A DNA stretch of 64,000 nt, from positions 1,116,001 to 1,180,000 of the forward strand of contig NZ_CP102590.1 in NCBI RefSeq assembly GCF_032818155.1. The letters are read 5' to 3'. Each line of letters opens with the position of its first letter. Position 1 is the first letter of the stretch. The notes beneath the pieces are model-generated. The model was not told the DNA's origin, did no database searches, and saw nothing but the letters and a program-made list of their open reading frames with translations. Shown here in pieces: positions 29,924 to 41,263 of the stretch. The translations under genes were made by a program, and so were the position numbers. Source of the DNA: Niallia taxi (GTDB lineage: Bacteria > Bacillota > Bacilli > Bacillales > Cytobacillaceae).

Positions 29924-30017
29924 TTAGAAAAGCGTATAAATATGCTGATAGCATGTAATGGTCTAATGCGAAGGGATTTATTAGGGAATAACTTCAACCT
30001 ATAAATGTGCAAGCTAA

Positions 30018-30046
30018 AACTCACCTTTTATAGGTGGGTTTTTTTA
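30018..30046 (+). terminator. Terminator after the glycan transporter operon
   Basis: AACTCACC pairs with GGTGGGTT, followed by a T run. Because the left arm is preceded by several A, it may also stop transcripts arriving from the opposite strand. Confidence 0.75.
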
Positions 30047-30124
30047 ATAGAATATTAAAATCCGAACAACTAGCGATGAAAGAGGATTCAGATACACACC
30101 AGTTACAGCGCACTTAAATCCTTG

Positions 30125-31420
30125 TTATTCTTGATACGTTATATTCAATAAAACGATGCTCACAATATAGAGTTCTCCCTTAGTCCATTGCTCGTATATC
30201 CCACCATTCTCCTCAACTGCTTTAATAACATTTCTAATTCCCATACCCTCAATCAACCGATTTTTACGAGTTTCGATTTCTGCTGTATTGAAATGGTTGG
30301 ATATTTCAATTGCTAAGTTATTTTTGAAGTAATCTACTTCTAAATTTACTTCCTTCATTTCAATTGATGTTAATCGTTTGCATGCATTAATGGAATTATC
30401 TAATAGATTACCGAATATTGCCACTAGCACATCGTCTTGTAAATTGATTTTTCTTGGCAAAAAGGCTTTAATATTGAATTTTATTCCTTTTGATAGTGCA
30501 TATGTATTTTTTTCATTTAACATGAAGTTCAAGGTATGGTTTTCAGTGAAAATTGTACTGTGTTCCTCTGTCAATGTGGAAAGGGAACGGCGGATGGAAT
30601 TGATAGCATCTTCAACTTCTCCTTTTTGTAGTTTGCTTAAAAGCACCAAATATTGATTTTTTAAATCATGATTAATAGCCTGTATTTCAGTTTGTGATTG
30701 TTTTACTTGATCATAAAATTTCATTTCATTCTCTAGGGTTTTGTTGTGAATGGTAGTTTGTACAAATTTTTCATAGTGATTAGATAAACTCACATAAAGA
30801 TATAGGATGCACAAGTTCATATATACAGTTCCGACAAACATAAGTGGAATTATAATATGAGGAAGGTTTGTTGAGCTTACTTCATTGATGAATGCTACAC
30901 ATAAAGTGAGTATGGATACAGAGGGGATAGAAGTAAGAGCAATTACTTTAAATAAATCTAACTGATGTTTGGACCAACTCCTTTTATAAACTTTAGTTTT
31001 TAAAAGTATAATGCAGATAATTTCAATTATTGTTGAAACGCTGGTGCTTGCTGAAACAAATATTAGATTATAAGATGAAATTTGCTTTAGTGGAAAGAAA
31101 CTAGAGAGAATTAAGTAGGAAAGATATTCACATCCTAATGATACAACTATGAGGACAGATGTCCAAAAAATTGATTTCTTTAAAGGAACATGGTTTTTGA
31201 TACCAACTGTTATTAAGATAGCTATGGTTAGTGCAATATTAATGAAAGGGACAATTTGAAGAGATACAATAAATCGCATTATACTAGAAGTGAGAAATAA
31301 AGCCAGTAATAATATATTTATTTTAGAAATGTACCGTCTTTTAATTTTACCGTAACTGGAGAAAAAATAATTTGCTAGAATAATATTAGCACATAAATTT
31401 AAAATCGTTATTATAATCAT
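30125..31420 (-). CDS. AgrC-like quorum-type sensor histidine kinase (GHKL)
   Basis: This protein has 431 residues. About six to seven N-terminal helices (1-210) are followed by a cytoplasmic part with the His in QAINHDLKNQYLVLL and a GHKL ATPase whose N box is NLLDNSINACKRL. This architecture is that of AgrC/ComD peptide-sensing kinases. It overlaps the upstream LytTR gene by 4 bases (ATGA). No Agr-type signal gene is present, so the peptide encoded across the divergent promoter may be its own signal, as for nisin. Confidence 0.85.
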   Translation of the reverse strand: MIIITILNLCANIILANYFFSSYGKIKRRYISKINILLLALFLTSSIMRFIVSLQIVPFINIALTIAILITVGIKNHVPLKKSIFWTSVLIVVSLGCEYLSYLILSSFFPLKQISSYNLIFVSASTSVSTIIEIICIILLKTKVYKRSWSKHQLDLFKVIALTSIPSVSILTLCVAFINEVSSTNLPHIIIPLMFVGTVYMNLCILYLYVSLSNHYEKFVQTTIHNKTLENEMKFYDQVKQSQTEIQAINHDLKNQYLVLLSKLQKGEVEDAINSIRRSLSTLTEEHSTIFTENHTLNFMLNEKNTYALSKGIKFNIKAFLPRKINLQDDVLVAIFGNLLDNSINACKRLTSIEMKEVNLEVDYFKNNLAIEISNHFNTAEIETRKNRLIEGMGIRNVIKAVEENGGIYEQWTKGELYIVSIVLLNITYQE

Positions 31421-32127
31421 CGGATTTTTTCTCTCAATTTCATCAAGATAGATTTTCTTGCTGCTAACTTATAGTTTTTACTGATAGGAATCCAAATATC
31501 TGGACTTTTGTCCTTATCAAGTGTTAGATAATCATTCCGAATTTCACGAACAAAACGTATATTAATAACGTAAGAATTATGCACTCTAACAAAGTTATCA
31601 TCTAAATTTGCTAGTAAATCTCTAGTTGTCATTATTACGGTGTAATCTTCTTCTAGTGTGTGGATTAATACTTTTCGCATGTTTTTCTCAAAAAACACAA
31701 TTTCTTGAAGAGGAAGTGTATAGTTCACTTTATTAAATTGAAATACGAAGTGTTTCTCATCAATATTAAGGTACTTTATCACCTTATCTAAAACGGGAAA
31801 TAGCTTCTCCTCATTCAAAGGTTTTAAGATATAATCGAATGTATGCAGTTTAAATACTTCCATTGCATAACTATCGAAGCTTGTTATAAAAACAATAGGA
31901 ACTTGGGCGTTTAACTCACGAATCCTACTTGCAATTTCTAAACCAGAACTGTCAGGAAACTCAATATCTAAAATGAATAAATGATAGTTTGATTTTGAAA
32001 GAAATTCTATTAGTTTTATTGGATTATGAAAAACATCAATAGAAAAAGTTGGATTGTATTTTTTAATAAGGGCTTCTGTCTGACTAGTAACCTCAAAAAT
32101 ATCATCGCATATTGCTATGTTTATCAA
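31417..32127 (-). CDS. LytTR-family response regulator
   Basis: This protein has 236 residues: receiver 1-120 with acidic pair DD (about residues 8-9), phospho-Asp in LFILDIEFPDSSG and Lys in YILKPLNEEKL, then a LytTR DNA-binding domain (about 130-235; FVRVHNSYVINIRFVREI). It is the partner of the AgrC-like kinase that follows. It faces away from the RiPP-like operon and probably activates it through the shared 298-base intergenic region. Confidence 0.9.
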   Translation of the reverse strand: MINIAICDDIFEVTSQTEALIKKYNPTFSIDVFHNPIKLIEFLSKSNYHLFILDIEFPDSSGLEIASRIRELNAQVPIVFITSFDSYAMEVFKLHTFDYILKPLNEEKLFPVLDKVIKYLNIDEKHFVFQFNKVNYTLPLQEIVFFEKNMRKVLIHTLEEDYTVIMTTRDLLANLDDNFVRVHNSYVINIRFVREIRNDYLTLDKDKSPDIWIPISKNYKLAARKSILMKLREKIR

Positions 32128-32195
32128 TCAAACCACCTCCGTTAATATTCAATTCCATTTTACCTTCCGTTCATTAAATATAGCAATTAATATTA

Positions 32196-32211
32196 TGTGA
32201 TTAATCTCACA
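32196..32211. promoter_or_regulatory. Fnr-type box proximal to the LytTR gene
   Basis: TGTGA-TTAATC-TCACA is a perfect match to the Bacillus Fnr box TGTGA-N6-TCACA. Its centre is about 41 bases upstream of a plausible start site for the leftward LytTR/AgrC transcript, the usual class II position. Confidence 0.6.
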
Positions 32212-32221
32212 AGTTTATTTA

Positions 32222-32273
32222 TACATGTAAACAACACTAGTTATTACTTATAAATGACCAAACATTACATGTA
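32222..32273. repeat. Two TACATGTA palindromes 44 bases apart
   Basis: TACATGTA occurs at 32222-32229 and 32266-32273, about four helical turns apart, between the two Fnr-type boxes. They could be regulator sites, perhaps of the LytTR protein, though they do not match a LytTR consensus that I know. Confidence 0.3.
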
Positions 32274-32292
32274 GGTTAAAGGGTGAATTACG

Positions 32293-32308
32293 TGTGATAT
32301 CTTTCACA
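32293..32308. promoter_or_regulatory. Fnr-type box proximal to the precursor gene
   Basis: TGTGA-TATCTT-TCACA is a second perfect Fnr-type box, 97 bases from the first. Its centre lies about 92 bases before the start predicted from TTGACG/TTACAA. A start near 32342 would instead give the classic -41.5 position. Confidence 0.6.
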
Positions 32309-32355
32309 TAAGGACAAGGTATTTTTCGTAAATGTATTTTCTTTTAAGAAATCTA

Positions 32356-32386
32356 TTGACGAGCCATAAAATACCTTTGTTACAAA
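32356..32386 (+). promoter_or_regulatory. Candidate promoter of the RiPP-like operon
   Basis: TTGACG (32356-32361) is followed after 18 bases by TTACAA (32380-32385). The -10 element is weak, which fits a promoter needing an activator. Confidence 0.4.
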
Positions 32387-32425
32387 TATACAAATCCTTC
32401 TGTAGAGGATGGGGTGGTGATTTAA

Positions 32426-32491
32426 ATGAAAAAAGTTACAGTTCGTCGTGCGACCAAAGTAGAAGCAACAACGTGGTGGATTATTATCTAA
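32426..32491 (+). CDS. Putative RiPP precursor peptide, 21 residues
   Basis: The gene starts at ATG 32426 after a GGTGGTGA ribosome binding site. The peptide begins MKKVTVRRATK, continues VEA and ends TTWWIII. The basic N-terminal half looks like a leader and the hydrophobic Trp/Ile end like a core. There is no Cys, Ser or C-terminal Asn, so a lanthipeptide or microcin C-like product is unlikely. It is the first gene of an operon with an E1-like enzyme bearing a PqqD-like domain, a metalloprotease and exporters, and it sits directly behind the regulated divergent promoter. I recognise no close homologue; the modification is unknown. Confidence 0.6.
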   Translation: MKKVTVRRATKVEATTWWIII

Positions 32492-32609
32492 TTTAGAAAA
32501 TAGTCCAAAAACTAGCACTAAGTTAGTATATCTGACCTTAATTTTTATTGGGGAGATATTCTTCCTTAGTGTCTTTTTAATCATATGAAATAATTATTGG
32601 AGAGGAAAT

Positions 32610-33746
32610 ATGAAATATAAACAACCACGAGTAAAACCAATCTATCCATTGTATAGGTTAAATGAAAACGAATTTAGAATTGGAGCGCAACTAGGTATTA
32701 CAGCAGAATTTAATGATCCAGAAAAACAAATGTGGGAGTTAGCCAAAAGGTTGGATGGACGCAATCTTAGGGAAGTCATTAATGAAGTTAGAGAATTATT
32801 TCCAGAACTAACTGTAGAAGATATTTTAGAGGGAGTTCAGTTGTTGGATGAAGAAGGTTTTATTGAAGAAACCTTTAAAGATAACGGAAAAAAAGTACCT
32901 GAACGTTACAAACCCAATGTAAATTATTTTAGTAGATTTATTGGAACTGAAAAAAATCGTTATGACATTCAACAAAAAATAAGTAATACAACAATTTTAT
33001 TATTAGGACTTGGAGGCGGAGGTTCAAACATTTTAACTCTTCTTGCTGGATTGGGTCCAAAGAAAGTTATCATCCTCGATTATGATATCGTCGAAGAAGG
33101 AAACTTAGGTAGACAACTATTATATCGGGAAAAGGATATAGGTAAACTTAAAACAGAAGTAGCACTACGAGCTTTAAAAGAAATGAACTCAACAATAGAA
33201 ATAGAAGCACATAATTTAAAAATTACAACCCCAGATGATGTGCTAGCTTTTGCTGAAGGAATAGATTTAGTAATTTGTGCTATTGATGAACCGCCATTCA
33301 TAGCACAAAGAATTGTGAATCAAGCAATAGTCCGTGCTAATTTACCTTGTGTTTTTGGTGCTTCTCAAGTAAGTCGCGGAAGAGTTTATACAGTTATACC
33401 TAAGGTTACAGGCTGTTTCGATTGTCTAAACTTGCAATACAGCATAAATGATCCACAATTTGTTGAACAATTTATAGGTTTTAGAAATATTAATTTTTCC
33501 CCACCAACCGTTGCATATGCACCTGGAATTTACCAGCTGACTGCAGCAATAGTTGATGAAGCAGTTAGAGTTATAACTGGTTATGCCCAACCGAGAAGTT
33601 TAGGAACACAATATGAAATTAATTTTGAAGATGGTTCTTCTTTTACTCATCCTACTTGGAGTAGAAATGAAAAACAATGTCCAACATGTGGGAAGGGGAA
33701 TATTTCTGACTGGGAAATATTCCAATATTATGAGAATAAGAAATAA
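32610..33746 (+). CDS. E1/ThiF-family adenylating enzyme with N-terminal RRE-like domain
   Basis: Residues 1-95 resemble a PqqD-type winged helix used as a RiPP precursor-recognition element (YPLYRLNENEFRIG; LTVEDILEGVQLLDEEGFIE). Residues 120-378 form a complete E1-like domain: nucleotide loop LLLGLGGGGSN (Gly-rich at 133-138), ribose-binding ILDYDIVEEGNLGRQ, VICAIDEP with the catalytic-region Asp, and zinc cysteines C269, C272, C357 and C360. Because the ATP and zinc sites are intact, it probably activates a carboxylate, most simply the C-terminus of the 21-residue peptide, as MccB, ThiF and MoeB do. It is not fused to a YcaO domain and none is nearby. Confidence 0.85.
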   Translation: MKYKQPRVKPIYPLYRLNENEFRIGAQLGITAEFNDPEKQMWELAKRLDGRNLREVINEVRELFPELTVEDILEGVQLLDEEGFIEETFKDNGKKVPERYKPNVNYFSRFIGTEKNRYDIQQKISNTTILLLGLGGGGSNILTLLAGLGPKKVIILDYDIVEEGNLGRQLLYREKDIGKLKTEVALRALKEMNSTIEIEAHNLKITTPDDVLAFAEGIDLVICAIDEPPFIAQRIVNQAIVRANLPCVFGASQVSRGRVYTVIPKVTGCFDCLNLQYSINDPQFVEQFIGFRNINFSPPTVAYAPGIYQLTAAIVDEAVRVITGYAQPRSLGTQYEINFEDGSSFTHPTWSRNEKQCPTCGKGNISDWEIFQYYENKK

Positions 33747-33763
33747 GGAAATGAGGTGAAAGT

Positions 33764-34687
33764 ATGCCAAGCAATATGATTGTAAAACACATAGCTAGTA
33801 GAAATTTAAAAAATGGAAAAGCAGTTATTATTGCTTCCGATTCAATTCCACTCGTTGTTGAAAGTGAAATTGCTGACATGTTAATAGAAGATCCCATGTA
33901 TTTAAATAACTTTAATCAAGATGTGAAATTAATATTTGAACAAAGTGGGTATTTTCAGAAACCTGAAGAAGAAGCGAAAACAATGCCAATAGAACAGACA
34001 ACGACTAGATGGAACTTATATCGCAAGCTATTTTTATTTGTCGGTATACTTTCACTTATTATTATTATTTCTGCTCTTCCTTTTACAGAGGGAATCCCAA
34101 CAGGAAATAAAATATTGGCACAAAATGTGCCCTTTTTTTATACATTACTGTGTGTTCTCCTTGTTGCAGTATTAACCAGTCTCTTACATGAGTATATGCA
34201 CATTTTTTTCTCGCACTCGGGTAAGAGATTAAAAAATATTATTAGGGTACAATTTATAAACTCGACAGCAACCGTTTCAATGTCACATATTTGGGTATGG
34301 TCACTATTTTCCAGATTAATTGCGTTATCAGCTGGTTTAATTTCGGATTTATTTCTATTAGCTATGGTTACAATAACACAAATTTTTATTTCGTATTGGG
34401 TTTTAATAGTGACGTCGGCTGTTTTGTGGGTTCGGATATTATGGCAATTTCGTTTTCAAAAAAAATGTGATGGTCAATTACTCATTCAAACATTGATGGA
34501 CAACCCGTTATTTGGTGATGTGATAGAACTTACTGATAATCCTTTAGAGCAAAGGAAAGAAAAGAATATATTTAGGATACTTAAGACTATAGGTTATACC
34601 ATCAATGCTCTTCTCTTAATATTCTGGTGTTTACCATTTATTTTGAGTATGTATAGATACTTAATTAACTATGTATCTATGAATTAG
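33764..34687 (+). CDS. Membrane zinc metalloprotease (HExxH), leader-processing candidate
   Basis: This protein has 307 residues. A soluble N-terminal part (1-85) is followed by four or more hydrophobic segments. The zinc motif LLHEYMHIFFSH (His142, Glu143, His146) lies in the second one. The arrangement is like the M50-type peptide metalloproteases found with peptide operons such as yydFGHIJ, but overall similarity is low. It lies 17 bases after the E1-like gene. The likely role is to cut the modified peptide during export, or immunity. Confidence 0.65.
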   Translation: MPSNMIVKHIASRNLKNGKAVIIASDSIPLVVESEIADMLIEDPMYLNNFNQDVKLIFEQSGYFQKPEEEAKTMPIEQTTTRWNLYRKLFLFVGILSLIIIISALPFTEGIPTGNKILAQNVPFFYTLLCVLLVAVLTSLLHEYMHIFFSHSGKRLKNIIRVQFINSTATVSMSHIWVWSLFSRLIALSAGLISDLFLLAMVTITQIFISYWVLIVTSAVLWVRILWQFRFQKKCDGQLLIQTLMDNPLFGDVIELTDNPLEQRKEKNIFRILKTIGYTINALLLIFWCLPFILSMYRYLINYVSMN

Positions 34688-34720
34688 CAATTAATAAGTC
34701 AAATATTTATCGAGGTGGTT

Positions 34721-35644
34721 ATGACACAAAAAGATAATAAGTTACAAATAATTTCGCTGAAAAAGGTTTATAAAAAAAATAATATTGTAGCTAATTCTGA
34801 CCTTACAATGTCTTTTAAGGCTGGTGAGGTTATTGCAATAATTGGGCACAATGGTGCTGGGAAATCGACATTATTAAATCAAATTTTAGGATTGGTAAAG
34901 CCAACTTCTGGAGTCATCCAATATGATGGAGTTAATTTTGTTAATAATCCTCAAAAAGCTAGAGCTTGCGTTTCTCTAATGCCTCAATTTCAAGCGCCTT
35001 TAACTGGTGTTACGATGAAACAAGCAATTGAATCGATATTTTTAATTCGTGGTGGAAGAAAAAAAGACATGAAAACAATAACGAATATTCTCATGAAGAA
35101 TCTGCAAATTGAGAATTATGCAGTACATTCGGGGGATAAGCTTTCCGGAGGTTTACAGAGACTAACTTCCTTTGCTATGACGGTAGTTTTTCCATCACCA
35201 ATTTTATTATTTGATGAACCGACAAATGACGTTGATCCAATACGTCGAAAGTTAATCTGGCAATATATGAAAAAACTCGCTTCTAATGGGCATATTGTTA
35301 TTGTAGTATCACATAATTTACTTGAAATAGAGCAGTATGCGGATAGATATATCATGCTAGAAAAGGGACAAATATTAAGAGAATCAGCAATCCTCACGAA
35401 TCCTGCAATATCCGTAAGTATTTTAAGTATTTTTATTCAAGATACGGATGTTTTATGTGAGATACCTATAAATATAGAGGTTAAATATATTGAAAAAGAG
35501 CATAAAGTAGATTTAATTTTAAAACCAGAGCATGTTTTAAGTACATTGGAATGGACCCTGCAACAACTTCGGATAGGGAGGATTTCTAATTATAAACTTT
35601 CTCCTATTTCTCTTGTATATGCTTACGAAGGTCTTAAAACATGA
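34721..35644 (+). CDS. ABC transporter ATP-binding protein (pair 1)
   Basis: This protein has 307 residues. Walker A is GHNGAGKST, the signature LSGGLQRLTSFAM is slightly unusual, Walker B is ILLFDEPTNDV, and the switch His is VVSHNLLE. About 80 extra C-terminal residues follow the ATPase domain. ATG 34721 follows CGAGGTGG. The stop codon overlaps the next gene, an ABC-2 permease, so the two form a transporter. Export of the peptide or self-immunity are both possible. Confidence 0.85.
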   Translation: MTQKDNKLQIISLKKVYKKNNIVANSDLTMSFKAGEVIAIIGHNGAGKSTLLNQILGLVKPTSGVIQYDGVNFVNNPQKARACVSLMPQFQAPLTGVTMKQAIESIFLIRGGRKKDMKTITNILMKNLQIENYAVHSGDKLSGGLQRLTSFAMTVVFPSPILLFDEPTNDVDPIRRKLIWQYMKKLASNGHIVIVVSHNLLEIEQYADRYIMLEKGQILRESAILTNPAISVSILSIFIQDTDVLCEIPINIEVKYIEKEHKVDLILKPEHVLSTLEWTLQQLRIGRISNYKLSPISLVYAYEGLKT

Positions 35645-36393
35645 GAGGAAATCTGATGGTTAATCCGATTTCTAAACAATTAGTAGGTTTGATTCGTTGG
35701 AGTTTATTGCGGCATAAGCATCTTTTAGTTGTTTTTTCGTTTACGCAGATAGTTCTTTCATTAGCGATAGTATACGGATTAGCACTCATGCTTCCAAATC
35801 TAGATGGAGAATCAACTATCTACTTATCTTCTGGATCAATTACATTGGGGATAATAGCTGTTGGTTGTGTTCTATCAGGCCAAATTGTAAATACAGCCAA
35901 GCTAGAAGGAATAATTTATTATCAAAAAACTTTACCAGTCTATCGTTTAAATATTATTTTGGCTGACATTATTATATGGGGATTTGCTTCGATACCAGGA
36001 ATTTTTATGAGCAGCATAGCAGCAATTTTTCGATTTCGATTAAATATTGATGTTTCTTTCCAAAGTTTATTAGTTATAGTTTTGGTGCAAATTAGTATGA
36101 TTTGTATTGGATTTGCCATAGCATATTGGTTTTCGGCAAATACGGTTGCTTTAGTAACTCAAATAATAATGATTGGAGGATTACTTTTTTCGCCCATTTT
36201 GTATCCAACCGATAGATTGCCGAATTGGACAAAGATTATTTACGAAAATTTGCCGTTTGTGCCAGCAAGTAAGCTTATTAGATCGACTTTATTTAACAAT
36301 GGGTCAGTTTCTATTCGGGAAGTAATTGTGGTATCGATCTGGGGAATAGTTACTTTGTTGTTATCATTAATTGCATTGTCGAGGAGAGAGTAA
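35641..36393 (+). CDS. ABC-2 type permease (pair 1)
   Basis: This 250-residue membrane protein has about six helices and an ABC-2 layout (long first loop, LPVYRLNIILADIIIWGF, then ILYPTDRLPNW before the last helices). The ATG at 35641 overlaps the ATPase stop (ATGA). A second ATG at 35656 has a better-spaced GAGAGG and may be the real start. Confidence 0.8.
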   Translation: MRGNLMVNPISKQLVGLIRWSLLRHKHLLVVFSFTQIVLSLAIVYGLALMLPNLDGESTIYLSSGSITLGIIAVGCVLSGQIVNTAKLEGIIYYQKTLPVYRLNIILADIIIWGFASIPGIFMSSIAAIFRFRLNIDVSFQSLLVIVLVQISMICIGFAIAYWFSANTVALVTQIIMIGGLLFSPILYPTDRLPNWTKIIYENLPFVPASKLIRSTLFNNGSVSIREVIVVSIWGIVTLLLSLIALSRRE

Positions 36394-36396
36394 GTA

Positions 36397-37134
36397 ATGG
36401 CTAGAATCAATGTAACAAATTTATACAAGACAATTGAAAACAAAGGGTTGGTGAACAATGCAAATTTAAGGGTTAATAATGGCGAAATTTGTGCAGTAAT
36501 CGGTCCTAACGGAGCAGGGAAAACTTCCTTAATAAAATGTATTTTAGGACTTTTGAAGCAAGATGTTGGAGACATACTTATTAATGAACAGGAAATGACT
36601 GCTATTACACGAAATGACCTATTAAAAGAGATAGGCACAGTTTTACAGTTTCCGGTAATGATCGGAAGATTAACCGTTGAACAAGTTTTTGTTGAGCACT
36701 TTCATTACTATGGAGTAAAAACTACAGGAGTTATGCAAGAGTTATTAAGAAAAGTAGAGTTGCCAGTTTCTATGAACAGCTTAGCTAAAAATCTATCCTT
36801 AGGAATGAAACAACGTTTATTATTATGTTTAGCTTTGGCGCATAAACCAAATATATTGATTCTTGATGAACCTTTTAATGGGCTAGATGTGGATGGAATC
36901 AGGTTAATGAAAGATATTTTAAAAGATTTTGCGGAAATGGGTAATAGCGTCCTTATAACGAGTCATTCACTAAATGAACTTCAGGATATAGCTACAAATG
37001 TAGTGTTTATGAAGAACGGTACTACCACCCATAATCAAAAGATGGAAGAAATTGTCCGGGATTTTGAAGGTGGATTGCTTCAATATTACGAGGAAGCTAA
37101 AACTTTAACTAGTGAGGAGGTAGGTAGGAGATGA
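36397..37134 (+). CDS. ABC transporter ATP-binding protein (pair 2)
   Basis: This protein has 245 residues with Walker A GPNGAGKTSLIKC, signature LSLGMKQRLLLCLALAHKP, Walker B ILILDEPFNGLD and switch His ITSHSL. It is of the short ATPase type found in BcrA-like or lantibiotic-immunity exporters. It overlaps the next permease gene by 4 bases. Confidence 0.85.
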   Translation: MARINVTNLYKTIENKGLVNNANLRVNNGEICAVIGPNGAGKTSLIKCILGLLKQDVGDILINEQEMTAITRNDLLKEIGTVLQFPVMIGRLTVEQVFVEHFHYYGVKTTGVMQELLRKVELPVSMNSLAKNLSLGMKQRLLLCLALAHKPNILILDEPFNGLDVDGIRLMKDILKDFAEMGNSVLITSHSLNELQDIATNVVFMKNGTTTHNQKMEEIVRDFEGGLLQYYEEAKTLTSEEVGRR

Positions 37135-37844
37135 AAATAGACAGTAATTTTGAATGGAGCAAGTTAAAAACTGTTCATAATACTATTTTTTTGATTGCTT
37201 TTTTATCCCAATTGGTATTTTTATTCTTCTTTGCGACGGTTGGACACTTTGAGTCTGGCGATACCTCCAGTAATATATTAAAAAATATTGCGGGAATTGG
37301 TGGTTTAGCGAGTACAATTACAATGTGCATTTTAGCTATTTACGGTGCTACTTTGGTCAATTCCTTTATTATCGAAAATTATATTGGTGAGAATCGTGTT
37401 CGTGTTTATTTATATCCTTATGGTAGAAAAAATTTGTTTTTATTAAAAATAAAAACCTTTGTTTTAACGTTTCTTAAACTTCAGCTATTAGGACTTCTTC
37501 TTTCAGATACCATTTTCTTAATAGGTGAATTTACTTTTCCTATTGTGAACTCTAAAGAAGGAATGTTATCAAATTTATTAATTGCAATAATCAGTTCCAT
37601 AACAAGTGCTTTAATAACTCTAGTAATTATCCTATTGTCTGGTGTAGTTGGCATCCGTTATTCTTCATTACCAGCTACGATTGTTTCAAGTATCGTGCTA
37701 GTTGTGATATTAGGAAATTTAATTGCAATGTCCCTTGCTGCTAAAATATTTCTAAGTCTAATAATAGCGTTAAGTTTAACAGTTCTACTCTATTTTATCA
37801 TTCAATCTGTGGGAGAAAGGATTGAAAATGAGGAAGTTGTATAG
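37131..37844 (+). CDS. ABC-2 type permease (pair 2)
   Basis: This 237-residue protein has six hydrophobic segments, starting with VHNTIFLIAFLSQLVFLFFFA, and a short cytoplasmic end. It is coupled to the preceding ATPase. Having two ATPase-permease pairs in one peptide locus usually means one exports and one protects the producer. Confidence 0.8.
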   Translation: MKIDSNFEWSKLKTVHNTIFLIAFLSQLVFLFFFATVGHFESGDTSSNILKNIAGIGGLASTITMCILAIYGATLVNSFIIENYIGENRVRVYLYPYGRKNLFLLKIKTFVLTFLKLQLLGLLLSDTIFLIGEFTFPIVNSKEGMLSNLLIAIISSITSALITLVIILLSGVVGIRYSSLPATIVSSIVLVVILGNLIAMSLAAKIFLSLIIALSLTVLLYFIIQSVGERIENEEVV

Positions 37845-37912
37845 TTGATTATTATAGAGATAAACCTATAAATTTGTTTACTAATGAGTATTAAAGGAGG
37901 TTTTACTGTAAA

Positions 37913-37951
37913 ATGATTCTCTACAAAATACCTTGTGCATTACTCCAATAG
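37913..37951 (+). CDS. Tiny ORF at the end of the RiPP-like operon (12 residues)
   Basis: An AAAGGAGG site (37893-37900) precedes ATG 37913, which encodes MILYKIPCALLQ. The spacing of 12 bases is longer than ideal. The strength of the site, its location just before the operon terminator and the single Cys are notable, but there is no homology support. It may be a signal peptide gene or chance. Confidence 0.25.
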   Translation: MILYKIPCALLQ

Positions 37952-37971
37952 TTAAACCAATAACCAATTCC

Positions 37972-38000
37972 AGTGTCAGCATAAGCGGACACTTTTTTTA
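37972..38000 (+). terminator. Terminator of the RiPP-like operon
   Basis: AGTGTC (37972-37977) pairs with GACACT (37988-37993), followed by eight T. The remaining bases up to 38263 contain only a weak promoter candidate (TTACAT 38098, TATAGC 38120) for the GH85 gene and no supported gene. Confidence 0.75.
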
Positions 38001-38263
38001 TTCCGCTTCAAGCAAAACTGTTCTTTACTTTAACCAATGAATCTATGCTTTTACCAATAGGATGCTTAGATTAGGACTGCTAAAATAATGGAAGGGCTTA
38101 CATTTTGTTTTGCCTGTTTTATAGCTGGTGTAAACAATATGTGTGAATGGAGGTGAAGCTATCACTCATTCAATCTTAATGGGCAGCTATTGATTACTAC
38201 AGAAAGCAATCCTTCACTTCTTTGTTATTACATACATTCGTTACAAAAAAGGGAGGCAAATGG

Positions 38264-41263
38264 ATGTTTTCGAAATGGGGAAAAACGAAAAAGACGCTAA
38301 TCGTCACGGTTATTATGCTGTTTATGCTGCTGGCAGGCTTGTCTCCGGCTTTGGCTGGGGATACATTGCCATTTACTGGTGACAGTGCAACTGGTTTGAA
38401 TCAGCCTACACAGCATGGATATACGGTGAATCACATTTTAGATTGGACACCAGAGACAGATAAAAACGCTGAAATGCTTAGGTCGAGAGTGCCATTGCAA
38501 GACCGAAATCAAGCGTTTTCTGCTACACAGGCAAACCCGGAGATAAGTGCGGATACGCAAATGTTTAATCTTGCTGGTGATTATGGGAATGCGTTTATGG
38601 ACAGTACGACATATACGAATAAGTTTGGTCAATATACGTTTCCGTACTGGCAATATGTCGATTATTATTCGTATTGGCATGGAACAGCGTCAGCGGATGT
38701 TCCAGATTATTTATATAATCCGAGCCTACCTTGGTATGAAAGATGGTTTGAATTTGGAGCGTTAAATATTCCAAATCCTGCTTATACGAATGCGGCCCAT
38801 AAAAACGGGGTTAAATCACTCGCTGTTATTTTCTTTTCGGATAATGATAGGGGACCACAGACATATTCACAAATGTTTGTTAAAGACAAGGACGGCAATT
38901 TCCCTGTTGCTGAAAAGCTTATTGAAATGGCTGAATACTATGGGTATGATGGCTATTTCTTTAATCAGGAGGAAGCAAGGGCAGGGGTTGCTGTTAAGGA
39001 TATTCCTGTATATAAAGAGTTTTTAAAGGCAATGAAACAAAGCGGCCTATATGTGCAGTGGTACGATTCTGTTGATAATACAACAGGTAAAACAAGATAT
39101 GAAAACGAATTCACGGCTGTCAACAGTCCGTTTGTAAAGGATTCAAAATACGGAGTTTTGACTGACTCCATTTTCTTAAACTATCTTTGGAACAAACAAA
39201 AGCTGGAAAAGTCGAAAGCCCATGCTGAAAGCTTAGGGTTAGATCCTTTGCAAACTGTGTTTGCAGGTGTTGAAGCAGGTGGTGACAGATTTAATAAACA
39301 GCGCAATGATTTACGAAATAATTTGGACAGCAACGGGAAGCCGATGAATAGTATTGCTATGCTTGGATCCGATTTTACTCATCATGCCTTAGATGAAGAT
39401 CTTGGCGGAGAAGATTCAAATCGACGTAACAACAGTGATTACCAATGGATGTCCTTTATTCGTGACCGTGCTTGGTGGAGTGGTCCTAATCTAGACCCAA
39501 CAAACCCAGGCAGAAACGCAGAAGCTAAGCTTGCAGACGTAGCGGCAAAAGGGGATAACTGGGACGGCGTTGCTTCCTATATCGCTGAGCGCAGTGTTAT
39601 TCAAGGCTCCAACTTTGTGTCCAACTTTAATATGGGCCGTGGCTTAGATTACTATGTAAATGGCAAGCTAAGCAATAAAGATGAATGGTCAAATATTAAT
39701 ATTCAAGACATTCCGGTGACATGGCAATGGTGGATGGATACAACTGGAACACCACTGCAGGCAGATTTTGATTTTGGTCCTGATTACAATATTGGAGCAA
39801 GATACAGCTATCAAAAGGTTGGTGCCTTTAATGGCGGCAGCTCGCTTGTTGTGAATGGCTCGTTGGATACAGAAAACCTATTGCATCTTTATAAAACTGA
39901 TTTACAAGTGAAAAAGAGCTCGAAGTTTTCAATTACCTATAACAAACCATCTCAAGATGACTCCTCACTTATGAGTATCGGTTTATTCTTTAAGGATAAA
40001 CCAGAAAAGGCAGTAAAAGTGGAAGTGCCTAATTCCGGTAAAAAGACGAATGGATGGGTAACAGCGAATCTTGATTTGTCCAAATATGCAGGAAAAGAGC
40101 TTGCTGCATTTGGCATCGTATTTGCAAATGGAGAACAGGAAAAGATAGCTGATTATCAGATGAATATCGGGCAAGTGAAAATTAGCGATGGTTCGATTAA
40201 GAAACCGAAGGCTCCGACGGATCTTAAGATAACAGAAGCATTAAGTGACTCGAATGAAATGTATATCGCTTGGAAGCTGGACGATTATGAAAATGTGAAG
40301 CAATACAATGTCTATAACAATGGAGCATATGTGGGCGGAGTTTATGACGAAGTATTTTACATCAAAAACTTGCAGGGATTATCTGGTGATATTTCTCTGA
40401 CAGCTGTGAGCCAAGACGGTCAAGAAAGTGCACCTGCTGTTGTGAAATATGATTTAACAAAAGGTGTGCGTAACATCGAAGCAACTCAAGCAGATAACGG
40501 TGATATGGTCGTGTCATGGCAAAATCCAGACAATGTGGATGGGAAAGTTACCGTAAATATTGCAACAGAGTACGACTATGCAAAGGAAGTTAATAAAACT
40601 GTCACTGTAAAAAAAGGAAAAACAGAGGCGACGCTACCTAATATGCCGCTGAATGGAGATAAATATCTGATTAAGATCAAAATCGGCAGCCAAAACTGGA
40701 TTAGCTATCGCAGTACGTTTTTTGATAAAACGATAGAAGCATATCCGGCTGAAAAGGTCACCATTGATGGAAATTCTGTTAAGTGGGATTTACCAAATAC
40801 GAGAGATTGGCACCATATATATGTTTATGAAAATGGAGAAGCCAAAACATTTGATACGACCTACAGTCAAGGCAAAAAGCCTTATATTGTGCGGGGGCGC
40901 ACACATTTGAAGGAGCTTACCTTCCAAACGAAAGCAACAGACAGCATTCTTGAATTTGTGATAGAGGATTATTCAGGTAATAAGGCAACAACAGTTATCA
41001 GAATGTCGTTAGATGATCTTTACAATAAAATCAATGATTTTGTTGCCAGTGGTGAAATGACTGAGACAGCTGGCAAGCAATTAACAAAAGTCTTGAATGC
41101 TGCAAAGAAGCATTATGAAGAGAATCGTATAAAGCAAGCAGCAATCCAAATGAAGAAATTTAAGGATGAAATAAACAGTAAGAAAATGAAGGGAATGTCA
41201 GACGGCGCAAAAACTACATTAAATGCTAGTGCGGATTATTTCCTAAGAAATATGTCGAAGTAG
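38264..41263 (+). CDS. Secreted endo-beta-N-acetylglucosaminidase, GH85
   Basis: This enzyme cuts between the two core GlcNAc residues of N-glycans outside the cell. A Sec signal peptide (1-31, ending SPALA) precedes the GH85 catalytic domain (about 90-430). Its motif GYDGYFFNQEEARAG carries the Asn and acid/base Glu of the family. Beta-sandwich and FN3-like regions follow (about 520-850; APTDLKITEALSDSNEMYIA). The last 90 residues (LYNKINDFVASGEMTE to the end) resemble a FIMAH domain of Bacillales exoproteins. No LPXTG is seen. The ATG at 38264 follows GGGAGG by 7 bases, giving 999 residues. Confidence 0.9.
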   Translation: MFSKWGKTKKTLIVTVIMLFMLLAGLSPALAGDTLPFTGDSATGLNQPTQHGYTVNHILDWTPETDKNAEMLRSRVPLQDRNQAFSATQANPEISADTQMFNLAGDYGNAFMDSTTYTNKFGQYTFPYWQYVDYYSYWHGTASADVPDYLYNPSLPWYERWFEFGALNIPNPAYTNAAHKNGVKSLAVIFFSDNDRGPQTYSQMFVKDKDGNFPVAEKLIEMAEYYGYDGYFFNQEEARAGVAVKDIPVYKEFLKAMKQSGLYVQWYDSVDNTTGKTRYENEFTAVNSPFVKDSKYGVLTDSIFLNYLWNKQKLEKSKAHAESLGLDPLQTVFAGVEAGGDRFNKQRNDLRNNLDSNGKPMNSIAMLGSDFTHHALDEDLGGEDSNRRNNSDYQWMSFIRDRAWWSGPNLDPTNPGRNAEAKLADVAAKGDNWDGVASYIAERSVIQGSNFVSNFNMGRGLDYYVNGKLSNKDEWSNINIQDIPVTWQWWMDTTGTPLQADFDFGPDYNIGARYSYQKVGAFNGGSSLVVNGSLDTENLLHLYKTDLQVKKSSKFSITYNKPSQDDSSLMSIGLFFKDKPEKAVKVEVPNSGKKTNGWVTANLDLSKYAGKELAAFGIVFANGEQEKIADYQMNIGQVKISDGSIKKPKAPTDLKITEALSDSNEMYIAWKLDDYENVKQYNVYNNGAYVGGVYDEVFYIKNLQGLSGDISLTAVSQDGQESAPAVVKYDLTKGVRNIEATQADNGDMVVSWQNPDNVDGKVTVNIATEYDYAKEVNKTVTVKKGKTEATLPNMPLNGDKYLIKIKIGSQNWISYRSTFFDKTIEAYPAEKVTIDGNSVKWDLPNTRDWHHIYVYENGEAKTFDTTYSQGKKPYIVRGRTHLKELTFQTKATDSILEFVIEDYSGNKATTVIRMSLDDLYNKINDFVASGEMTETAGKQLTKVLNAAKKHYEENRIKQAAIQMKKFKDEINSKKMKGMSDGAKTTLNASADYFLRNMSK

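Follow-up and report, generated by a model that had tools for sequence, protein, structure and literature searches.

A probable enterofaecin-type (WWIII) RiPP gene cluster in Niallia taxi, built on a 21-residue precursor and an RRE-ThiF enzyme

The DNA analysed here, called the window, comprises 64,000 nucleotides of Niallia taxi (NCBI RefSeq assembly GCF_032818155.1, contig NZ_CP102590.1, positions 1,116,001 to 1,180,000 of the forward strand) and contains, between positions 30125 and 37844, what is very probably a gene cluster of the enterofaecin or WWIII type, making a ribosomally synthesised and post-translationally modified peptide (RiPP) activated at its C-terminus. The genes form two divergent arms. 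The (-) strand arm (30125-32127) encodes an AgrC-like sensor kinase of the GHKL type (30125..31420; Pfam match to PF14501, seven predicted transmembrane segments) and a LytTR response regulator (31417..32127; PF00072 and PF04397). The (+) strand arm (32426-37844) is a row of co-directional genes headed by that of the precursor peptide, MKKVTVRRATKVEATTWWIII, which is 21 amino acids long with a VRRA leader and a core ending in WWIII (32426..32491), and which is recognised by its counterparts in related loci and by its codon pattern. After a gap of 118 bases comes the gene of an E1-like peptide adenylyltransferase combining a RiPP recognition element (RRE) with a ThiF domain, probably the orthologue of EnfB (32610..33746; assigned by Pfam, alignment and an AlphaFold2 model); then, overlapping or less than 30 bases apart, follow the genes of a membrane HExxH metalloprotease, probably the leader peptidase (33764..34687), of a first ATP-binding cassette (ABC) ATPase (34715..35644) with its ABC-2 permease (35641..36393; PF01061), both assigned by Pfam and locus comparison, and of a second ATPase (36397..37134) with a membrane partner of five predicted transmembrane segments and no Pfam or NCBIfam match (37131..37844). 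Two features are non-coding, both read on the (+) strand: a direct repeat ATTAC-N16-ATTAC of 21-bp period (32243..32268), which is a candidate site for the LytTR regulator by its recurrence upstream of the precursor in related loci, and, between the precursor and E1 genes, an RNA hairpin predicted by folding and followed by CUUUUUA (32515..32572), a candidate attenuator. An initial annotation of this DNA had named the 21-residue peptide gene and the divergent AgrC-like/LytTR system, and both are present as described; it had also listed two ABC-2 pairs, and two ATPase/permease pairs are indeed there, the second permease having no match in Pfam or NCBIfam.

The locus was compared within a related set of 11 loci whose E1 enzymes are 52-100% identical to that of the window, namely the window itself, L005, L006, L047-L052, L057 and L058. 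The order peptide, E1, protease, ATPase 1, permease 1, which the initial annotation had put forward for a neighbourhood check, is kept in 8 of the 10 relatives, counting two broken copies: L050 (genome G539), a decayed copy that has lost the core of its precursor and carries an in-frame stop in E1, and L052, in which the E1 reading frame is disrupted near its start. The exceptions are L051, where the locus comparison gives no match to the window protease, and L058, the second E1 of genome G857, which has a protease and an ABC pair and upstream of which no 20-21-residue open reading frame (ORF) ending in Trp-x-x-x was found. Such an ORF stands at the same place upstream of the E1 gene in 9 of the 11 loci, window included, and because of these counterparts at one position it is more than a chance occurrence; homologous loci devoid of a small ORF, which the initial annotation had named as evidence against itself, are not the pattern observed. 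Small ORFs in the window were listed over 32100-32640 and 37100-38300. Between the window gene and each of the six other 21-residue counterparts, 7-12 of 13-18 nucleotide differences fall at third codon positions, and the frame is unchanged, but 6-7 codons alter the residue. The precursors of the relatives end in WWIVI, WWIVF, WWIII, WWIIV, RWIII or LWVVF, so that Trp at the third residue before the last (n-3) is present in 9/9 precursors (8 distinct) and Trp at n-4 in 7/9, L048 having Arg and L051 having Leu directly before the conserved Trp; these natural variants are informative as to which Trp is important. Least similar of all is the L051 peptide, which was picked among several small ORFs, partly by its ending.

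The E1 enzyme matches the ThiF domain with 178 bits. For its N-terminus the initial annotation had proposed a PqqD/RRE-like region, of which the PqqD part finds no match in Pfam at E values up to 10 and the RRE-like part is favoured by the AlphaFold2 model (predicted local distance difference test, pLDDT, 91.4). This model aligns to MccB of microcin C7 over residues 4-362 and to PaaA of pantocin A over residues 9-352, suggesting a common fold over nearly the whole chain, N-terminal domain included; ThiF and MoeB align from about residue 93 onward only, and among the 50 PDB entries listed MccB and PaaA alone align to the N-terminal domain. Residues 1 to about 90 are, judging from the model, probably a leader-binding RRE-like region. 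Identity to MccB and PaaA in the structural alignment is 21-24%, and the precursors and products are others: the microcin C precursor, of 7 residues in E. coli, has Asn at its end, whereas that of the window has 21 residues and ends in WWIII. The ATP- and Mg-binding residues R167, K180 and D225 of EnfB correspond to R168, K181 and D226 in the window E1 and occur at identical residue numbers in the E1 of L049. R168, K181 and D226 are invariant in 28/28 aligned E1s and are therefore common to a wider family, not specific to the enterofaecin type. Four cysteines, C269, C272, C357 and C360, are also invariant.

The primary report on EnfA-EnfB is said to be that of Wang in ACS Omega in 2024, and the name enterofaecin occurs in two papers among the open-access full texts searched. 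Enterofaecin, described for Enterococcus and Streptococcus as a WWIII-type RiPP, was compared with the window through the description and residue numbers given in the available part of a review (PMC12250964). By that account the two have in common a 21-residue precursor, a WWI[IV]I end, an RRE-ThiF enzyme with identical ATP/Mg residues, and four transporter genes accompanied by regulators; they differ in the leader, VRRA in the window and (V/I)RKA in enterofaecin, and in the HExxH protease of the window, which goes unmentioned in the review's account as available (PMC12250964). The locus thus matches the WWIII-type RiPPs of that review, contrary to the initial annotation, which had called it undescribed and of no class that it recognised. 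The class is already described, and the window is a further example of it, the chemistry and function of which we infer. New in this analysis are the conservation of Trp at n-3, the E1 signature common with IndF (see below), the 21-bp repeat and the hairpin between precursor and enzyme genes, and the analysis extends enterofaecin-type clusters to another order of Bacilli and to clostridia. The ind cluster (IndA-IndF) of Streptococcus pneumoniae, as presented in the accessible text of its report (PMC12150305), offers a second comparison: it likewise has Trp at n-3, a C-terminal Ile, an RRE-ThiF enzyme and residues at the positions E227, P229, S252, Q253 and S255, but IndA is longer, acidic and ends in NWYFI, the cluster has one transporter, and its M16 zinc protease contrasts with the membrane HExxH protein of the window. 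The E1s of the two are about 25% identical. The same report assembled 27,400 RRE-ThiF proteins (PMC12150305), a collection that very likely contained relatives of the window E1, and no first sighting is therefore claimed for this enzyme. According to another paper, ThiF genes adjoin rgg regulators in S. thermophilus (PMC12445099). The family of PMC13381572 (Nat Commun 2026) was considered and set aside as a different one, ThiF being absent from its text as available.

The protease, like the precursor, had been noted at the outset as a membrane HExxH protease; it is present, and H142, E143 and H146 are invariant in 10/10 aligned proteases, but its only family match lies far below the cut-off. 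That match is to the NCBIfam YydH/LiaK epipeptide protease (19.9 bits, cut-off 225), a family matched by 4 of the 10 aligned proteases with a best E of 5e-10. The window protease has no Pfam match at E 0.1, and a fold search gave none at E 0.001 (model pLDDT 79.6, with two stretches below 50). A distantly related membrane protease is what the locus has in common with epipeptide clusters. These carry a radical S-adenosylmethionine (SAM) epimerase, whereas the window has an E1 enzyme and no radical SAM protein among its eight locus proteins. As to transport, ABC pair 1 is matched in 10/10 relatives and ABC pair 2 is patchy. Full matches to pair 2 lie downstream in L047, L049 (permease partial), L050 and L052; L048 matches part of the ATPase; in L005 (both genes) and L006 (ATPase) the match is upstream of the precursor; matches are weak (27%) in L057 and L058, and L051 has none. 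Among NCBIfam models ATPase 2 comes closest to TIGR03740, that of a lantibiotic-protection ATPase (162 bits, cut-off 310). The distribution of the two pairs would suit export by pair 1 and immunity by pair 2, their probable roles. The general proposal of the initial annotation, that a short precursor is modified by an RRE-E1 enzyme in a RiPP locus with a protease, an exporter and a probable immunity pair, is supported by these comparisons.

Homologues of the kinase (28-36% identical) and of the regulator (34-50% identical) occur together in the same 6 of the 10 related loci; they are upstream and divergent in the window and downstream in L047-L050 and L052. Six of the seven loci with a linked kinase and regulator (window, L047, L048, L049, L050 and L052) carry the repeat [AG]TTAC-N16-[AG]T[TG]AC, its first half-site 126-183 bases ahead of the precursor; a 21-bp period suits LytTR sites. 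The pattern was derived from the same sequences on which it was scored, and the six loci are not all independent, because the repeat letters of L049 and L050 are identical. The repeat is not found in L051, which has a linked kinase and a linked regulator, the latter 34% identical, nor in any of the three tested loci that have no linked regulator, L005, L006 and L057 (269 bases searchable in L057). Across the 64-kb window the pattern has 3 matches, two of them elsewhere; shuffled sequences average 0.56, and 1 of 100 shuffles reached 3. A hairpin between precursor and E1 is predicted in 9/9 loci folded, with z at or below -2.2 in eight of them (-2.94 in the window, -1.1 in L051) and a U-run following in 7/9; it may act as an attenuator that keeps the precursor in excess over the enzyme. 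AgrB acts in staphylococcal signalling, and no Pfam match to it occurs among the eight locus proteins.

Put together, these elements would suit the following pathway. The N-terminal RRE-like domain of the E1 would grip the precursor leader at its V-R-R-A region, and the enzyme with ATP would adenylate the C-terminal carboxylate of Ile21; a nucleophile within the same peptide would attack the activated Ile21 and, with loss of water, close a C-terminal ring. The membrane protease would then remove the leader, ABC pair 1 would carry the short ring peptide out of the cell, and protection of the producer would fall to ABC pair 2. Outside, the AgrC-like kinase would sense the product and the LytTR regulator would switch on the operon through the 21-bp repeat, making the peptide its own inducer.

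Tentatively, we propose that WWIII peptides are indolylamides joining N1 of Trp18 to Ile21, not imides, and that they act as their own inducers through the AgrC-like/LytTR pair. The chemical part takes its lead from IndF, which links the indole nitrogen of Trp to the C-terminal Ile in the NWYFI end of IndA (PMC12150305, accessible text). Trp18 of the window and the ring-forming Trp of IndA are equally far from the C-terminus, and IndF Q167, K179 and T298 correspond to Q169, K181 and T300 in the window E1 (T or S across the group). In addition, E227, P229, S252, Q253 and S255, which lie near the Mg-binding Asp or R258 in sequence, are invariant in eight WWIII E1s (those with a Trp-x-x-x precursor, L058 excluded), shared with IndF and seldom seen in 18 other E1s, the precursors found for these 18 all lacking Trp at n-3; when each of these 18 is substituted for IndF as a control, two residues at most are common within 220-262. 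In L058, P229, Q253 and S255 are altered, and Tyr stands at residue 230, matching IndF. To find IndF-type enzymes, the codons of NWYFI were sought across the genus of G146; of 247 genomes 8 gave a match, and 5 of the 8 matches are IndA-like peptides (3 distinct), which are left out of the support for the Trp register, as the search pattern itself fixes it. If the proposal is true, the WWIII and ind families share an indole-acylation signature, D-E-P-P-[FY] ... S-Q-x-S-x-G-[RK], at about 25% identity, and a cyclic-peptide quorum signal would be closed by an E1 enzyme in the role that AgrB, mentioned in PMC12250964, fills in staphylococcal signalling. Several points weigh against this proposal or against the wider enterofaecin-type reading. 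Y228 and K256 of IndF, thought to activate the indole, are replaced by F230 and R258 in the window E1, which counts against a simple transfer of mechanism; the signature columns were selected post hoc from the alignment, and L018 matches seven columns overall, as many as IndF, mostly outside the signature region; the count of Trp at n-3 is partly circular, since the ending helped to select the L051 peptide and any precursor of L058 devoid of Trp would go unnoticed; the Lys of (V/I)RKA has become Arg in the window leader, VRKA being kept in L047, L048, L049 and L052; deep branching in the E1 tree comes out without resolution; L005, L006 and L057 have no linked kinase or regulator, and the hairpins of L005 and L006 lack the U-run.

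The closest chemical competitor keeps the cluster as it is and has the E1 join the Ile21 carboxyl to the backbone nitrogen of Ile19 as a macrocyclic imide, Trp18 only positioning the substrate; it is possible, if somewhat doubtful. By the review's account as available, the Ile19 imide made by EnfB was confirmed by mass spectrometry and nuclear magnetic resonance (NMR), and Trp17 and Trp18 matter for binding and activity (PMC12250964), and the missing Y228/K256 pair also fits; yet the accessible text of the IndF report holds that the exact structure of enterofaecin still calls for more NMR (PMC12150305), Trp at n-3 is kept in 9/9 precursors while Trp at n-4 varies, and active-site residues are common to the window E1 group and IndF. 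Judged on sequence comparison, Trp18 indole nitrogen is slightly more likely to be the ring nucleophile than Ile19 backbone nitrogen. Capture of the activated C-terminus by an outside amine in the cell, giving amidation or conjugation in place of a ring, is improbable: EnfB does amidate in vitro with available amines, but by the review's account this depended on a primary amine being supplied (PMC12250964), and the shared gene set, compared through the eight window proteins, includes no gene resembling an amine supplier. That the product is purely a bacteriocin, the kinase sensing something else, is conceivable, although we lean away from it; the three loci lacking a linked kinase and regulator and the likeness of ATPase 2 to lantibiotic-protection ATPases speak for it, against which stand the co-occurrence of the upstream repeat with a linked kinase and regulator and the missing AgrB match, although a separate pheromone gene may lie outside 32100-32640 and 37100-38300. 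Finally, a cofactor enzyme of the ThiF/MoeB type, or an anti-phage E1-E2 enzyme, beside an accidental small ORF is hardly credible. The ThiF match would suit it, as would PADLOC matches to E1-E2 systems (best 48 bits, over the E1 core only), but among the PDB entries listed the RRE-like N-terminus is aligned by MccB and PaaA alone, the precursor is conserved, and the eight locus proteins include no E2 or deubiquitinase domain; moreover, the three other ThiF-family enzymes of the genome fall outside the 100/100-supported clade of the window E1, so that the grouping with cofactor ThiF/MoeB enzymes, which the initial annotation had held would refute it, is not seen. This explanation is rejected on the tree, the N-terminal domain alignment and the core-only PADLOC match.

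The 7.7-kb island has a G+C content of 31.8%, as against 37.9% for the window, and lies below all 113 sliding windows of its size; this low value suggests that the cluster came from a foreign source at an earlier date. In 12 congeners the E1 finds no match at E 1e-40. Four of them possess the GH85 gene (L075-L078, compared with window 29924-38221), and there the cluster is missing between ROK and GH85, the spacing between the two being short except in G006, where other sequence of about 1.9 kb separates them. Remnants of the kinase persist at this junction, the last 30 codons in G002 (29 identical residues) and the last 15 in G006 (14 identical), and for this reason the cluster was probably present in the ancestor of these congeners and then deleted, not newly inserted here. 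The flanks of the island (24301-44482) resemble a locus for N-glycan use, with genes for a sensor kinase, an AraC-type regulator, GH1, ROK, GH85 and GH38.

The loci compared came from searches with the E1. At E 1e-40 these hit 6 of 101 relatives and, in the class, 28 of 398 members, the genome's own match included in both; apart from its own and that of G146, all are 29-40% identical. G146 belongs to the same class as the window and to a different order, and is probably a Streptococcus, since the published NWYFI precursor occurs in its genus. At E 1e-50 its order had matches in 6 of 395 members and that of G840 in 3 of 392, and a scan of genome contigs gave two, in Falcatimonas sp. and Acetivibrio ethanolgignens. 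The clostridial copy L005 (3525-15842), with a CAAX-type protease gene after its ABC pair, is flanked by relaxase and Tn916-type integrase genes and for that reason probably sits on a mobile element. E1 relatives occur in 31 plasmid records at E 1e-20, every one less than 60% identical, so that no close plasmid copy is found. A phage origin of the cluster was rejected, as 50,697 phage records yielded no relative of the E1 at E 1e-20 and none was confirmed among four candidate stretches in viral contigs. The window E1 matches phrog_19840 over nearly its full length (E 4e-45), and related enzymes therefore exist in viruses or prophages. Among 33 more distant loci (L008-L041 without L013), with E1s 29-40% identical, 24 have upstream ORFs of 18-24 residues, which share a single leader pattern (MKIxxKKxExxxxT-like) while their cores, such as AVAA, PYGG, PYYT and LRPGT, are unrelated; L029 has eight copies and L011 five. 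On the opposite strand, taken as a control, 2 of 33 loci give such an ORF, and that of L036 is itself precursor-like. By their predicted peptides, these distant loci form a broad family of short-precursor RRE-ThiF systems.

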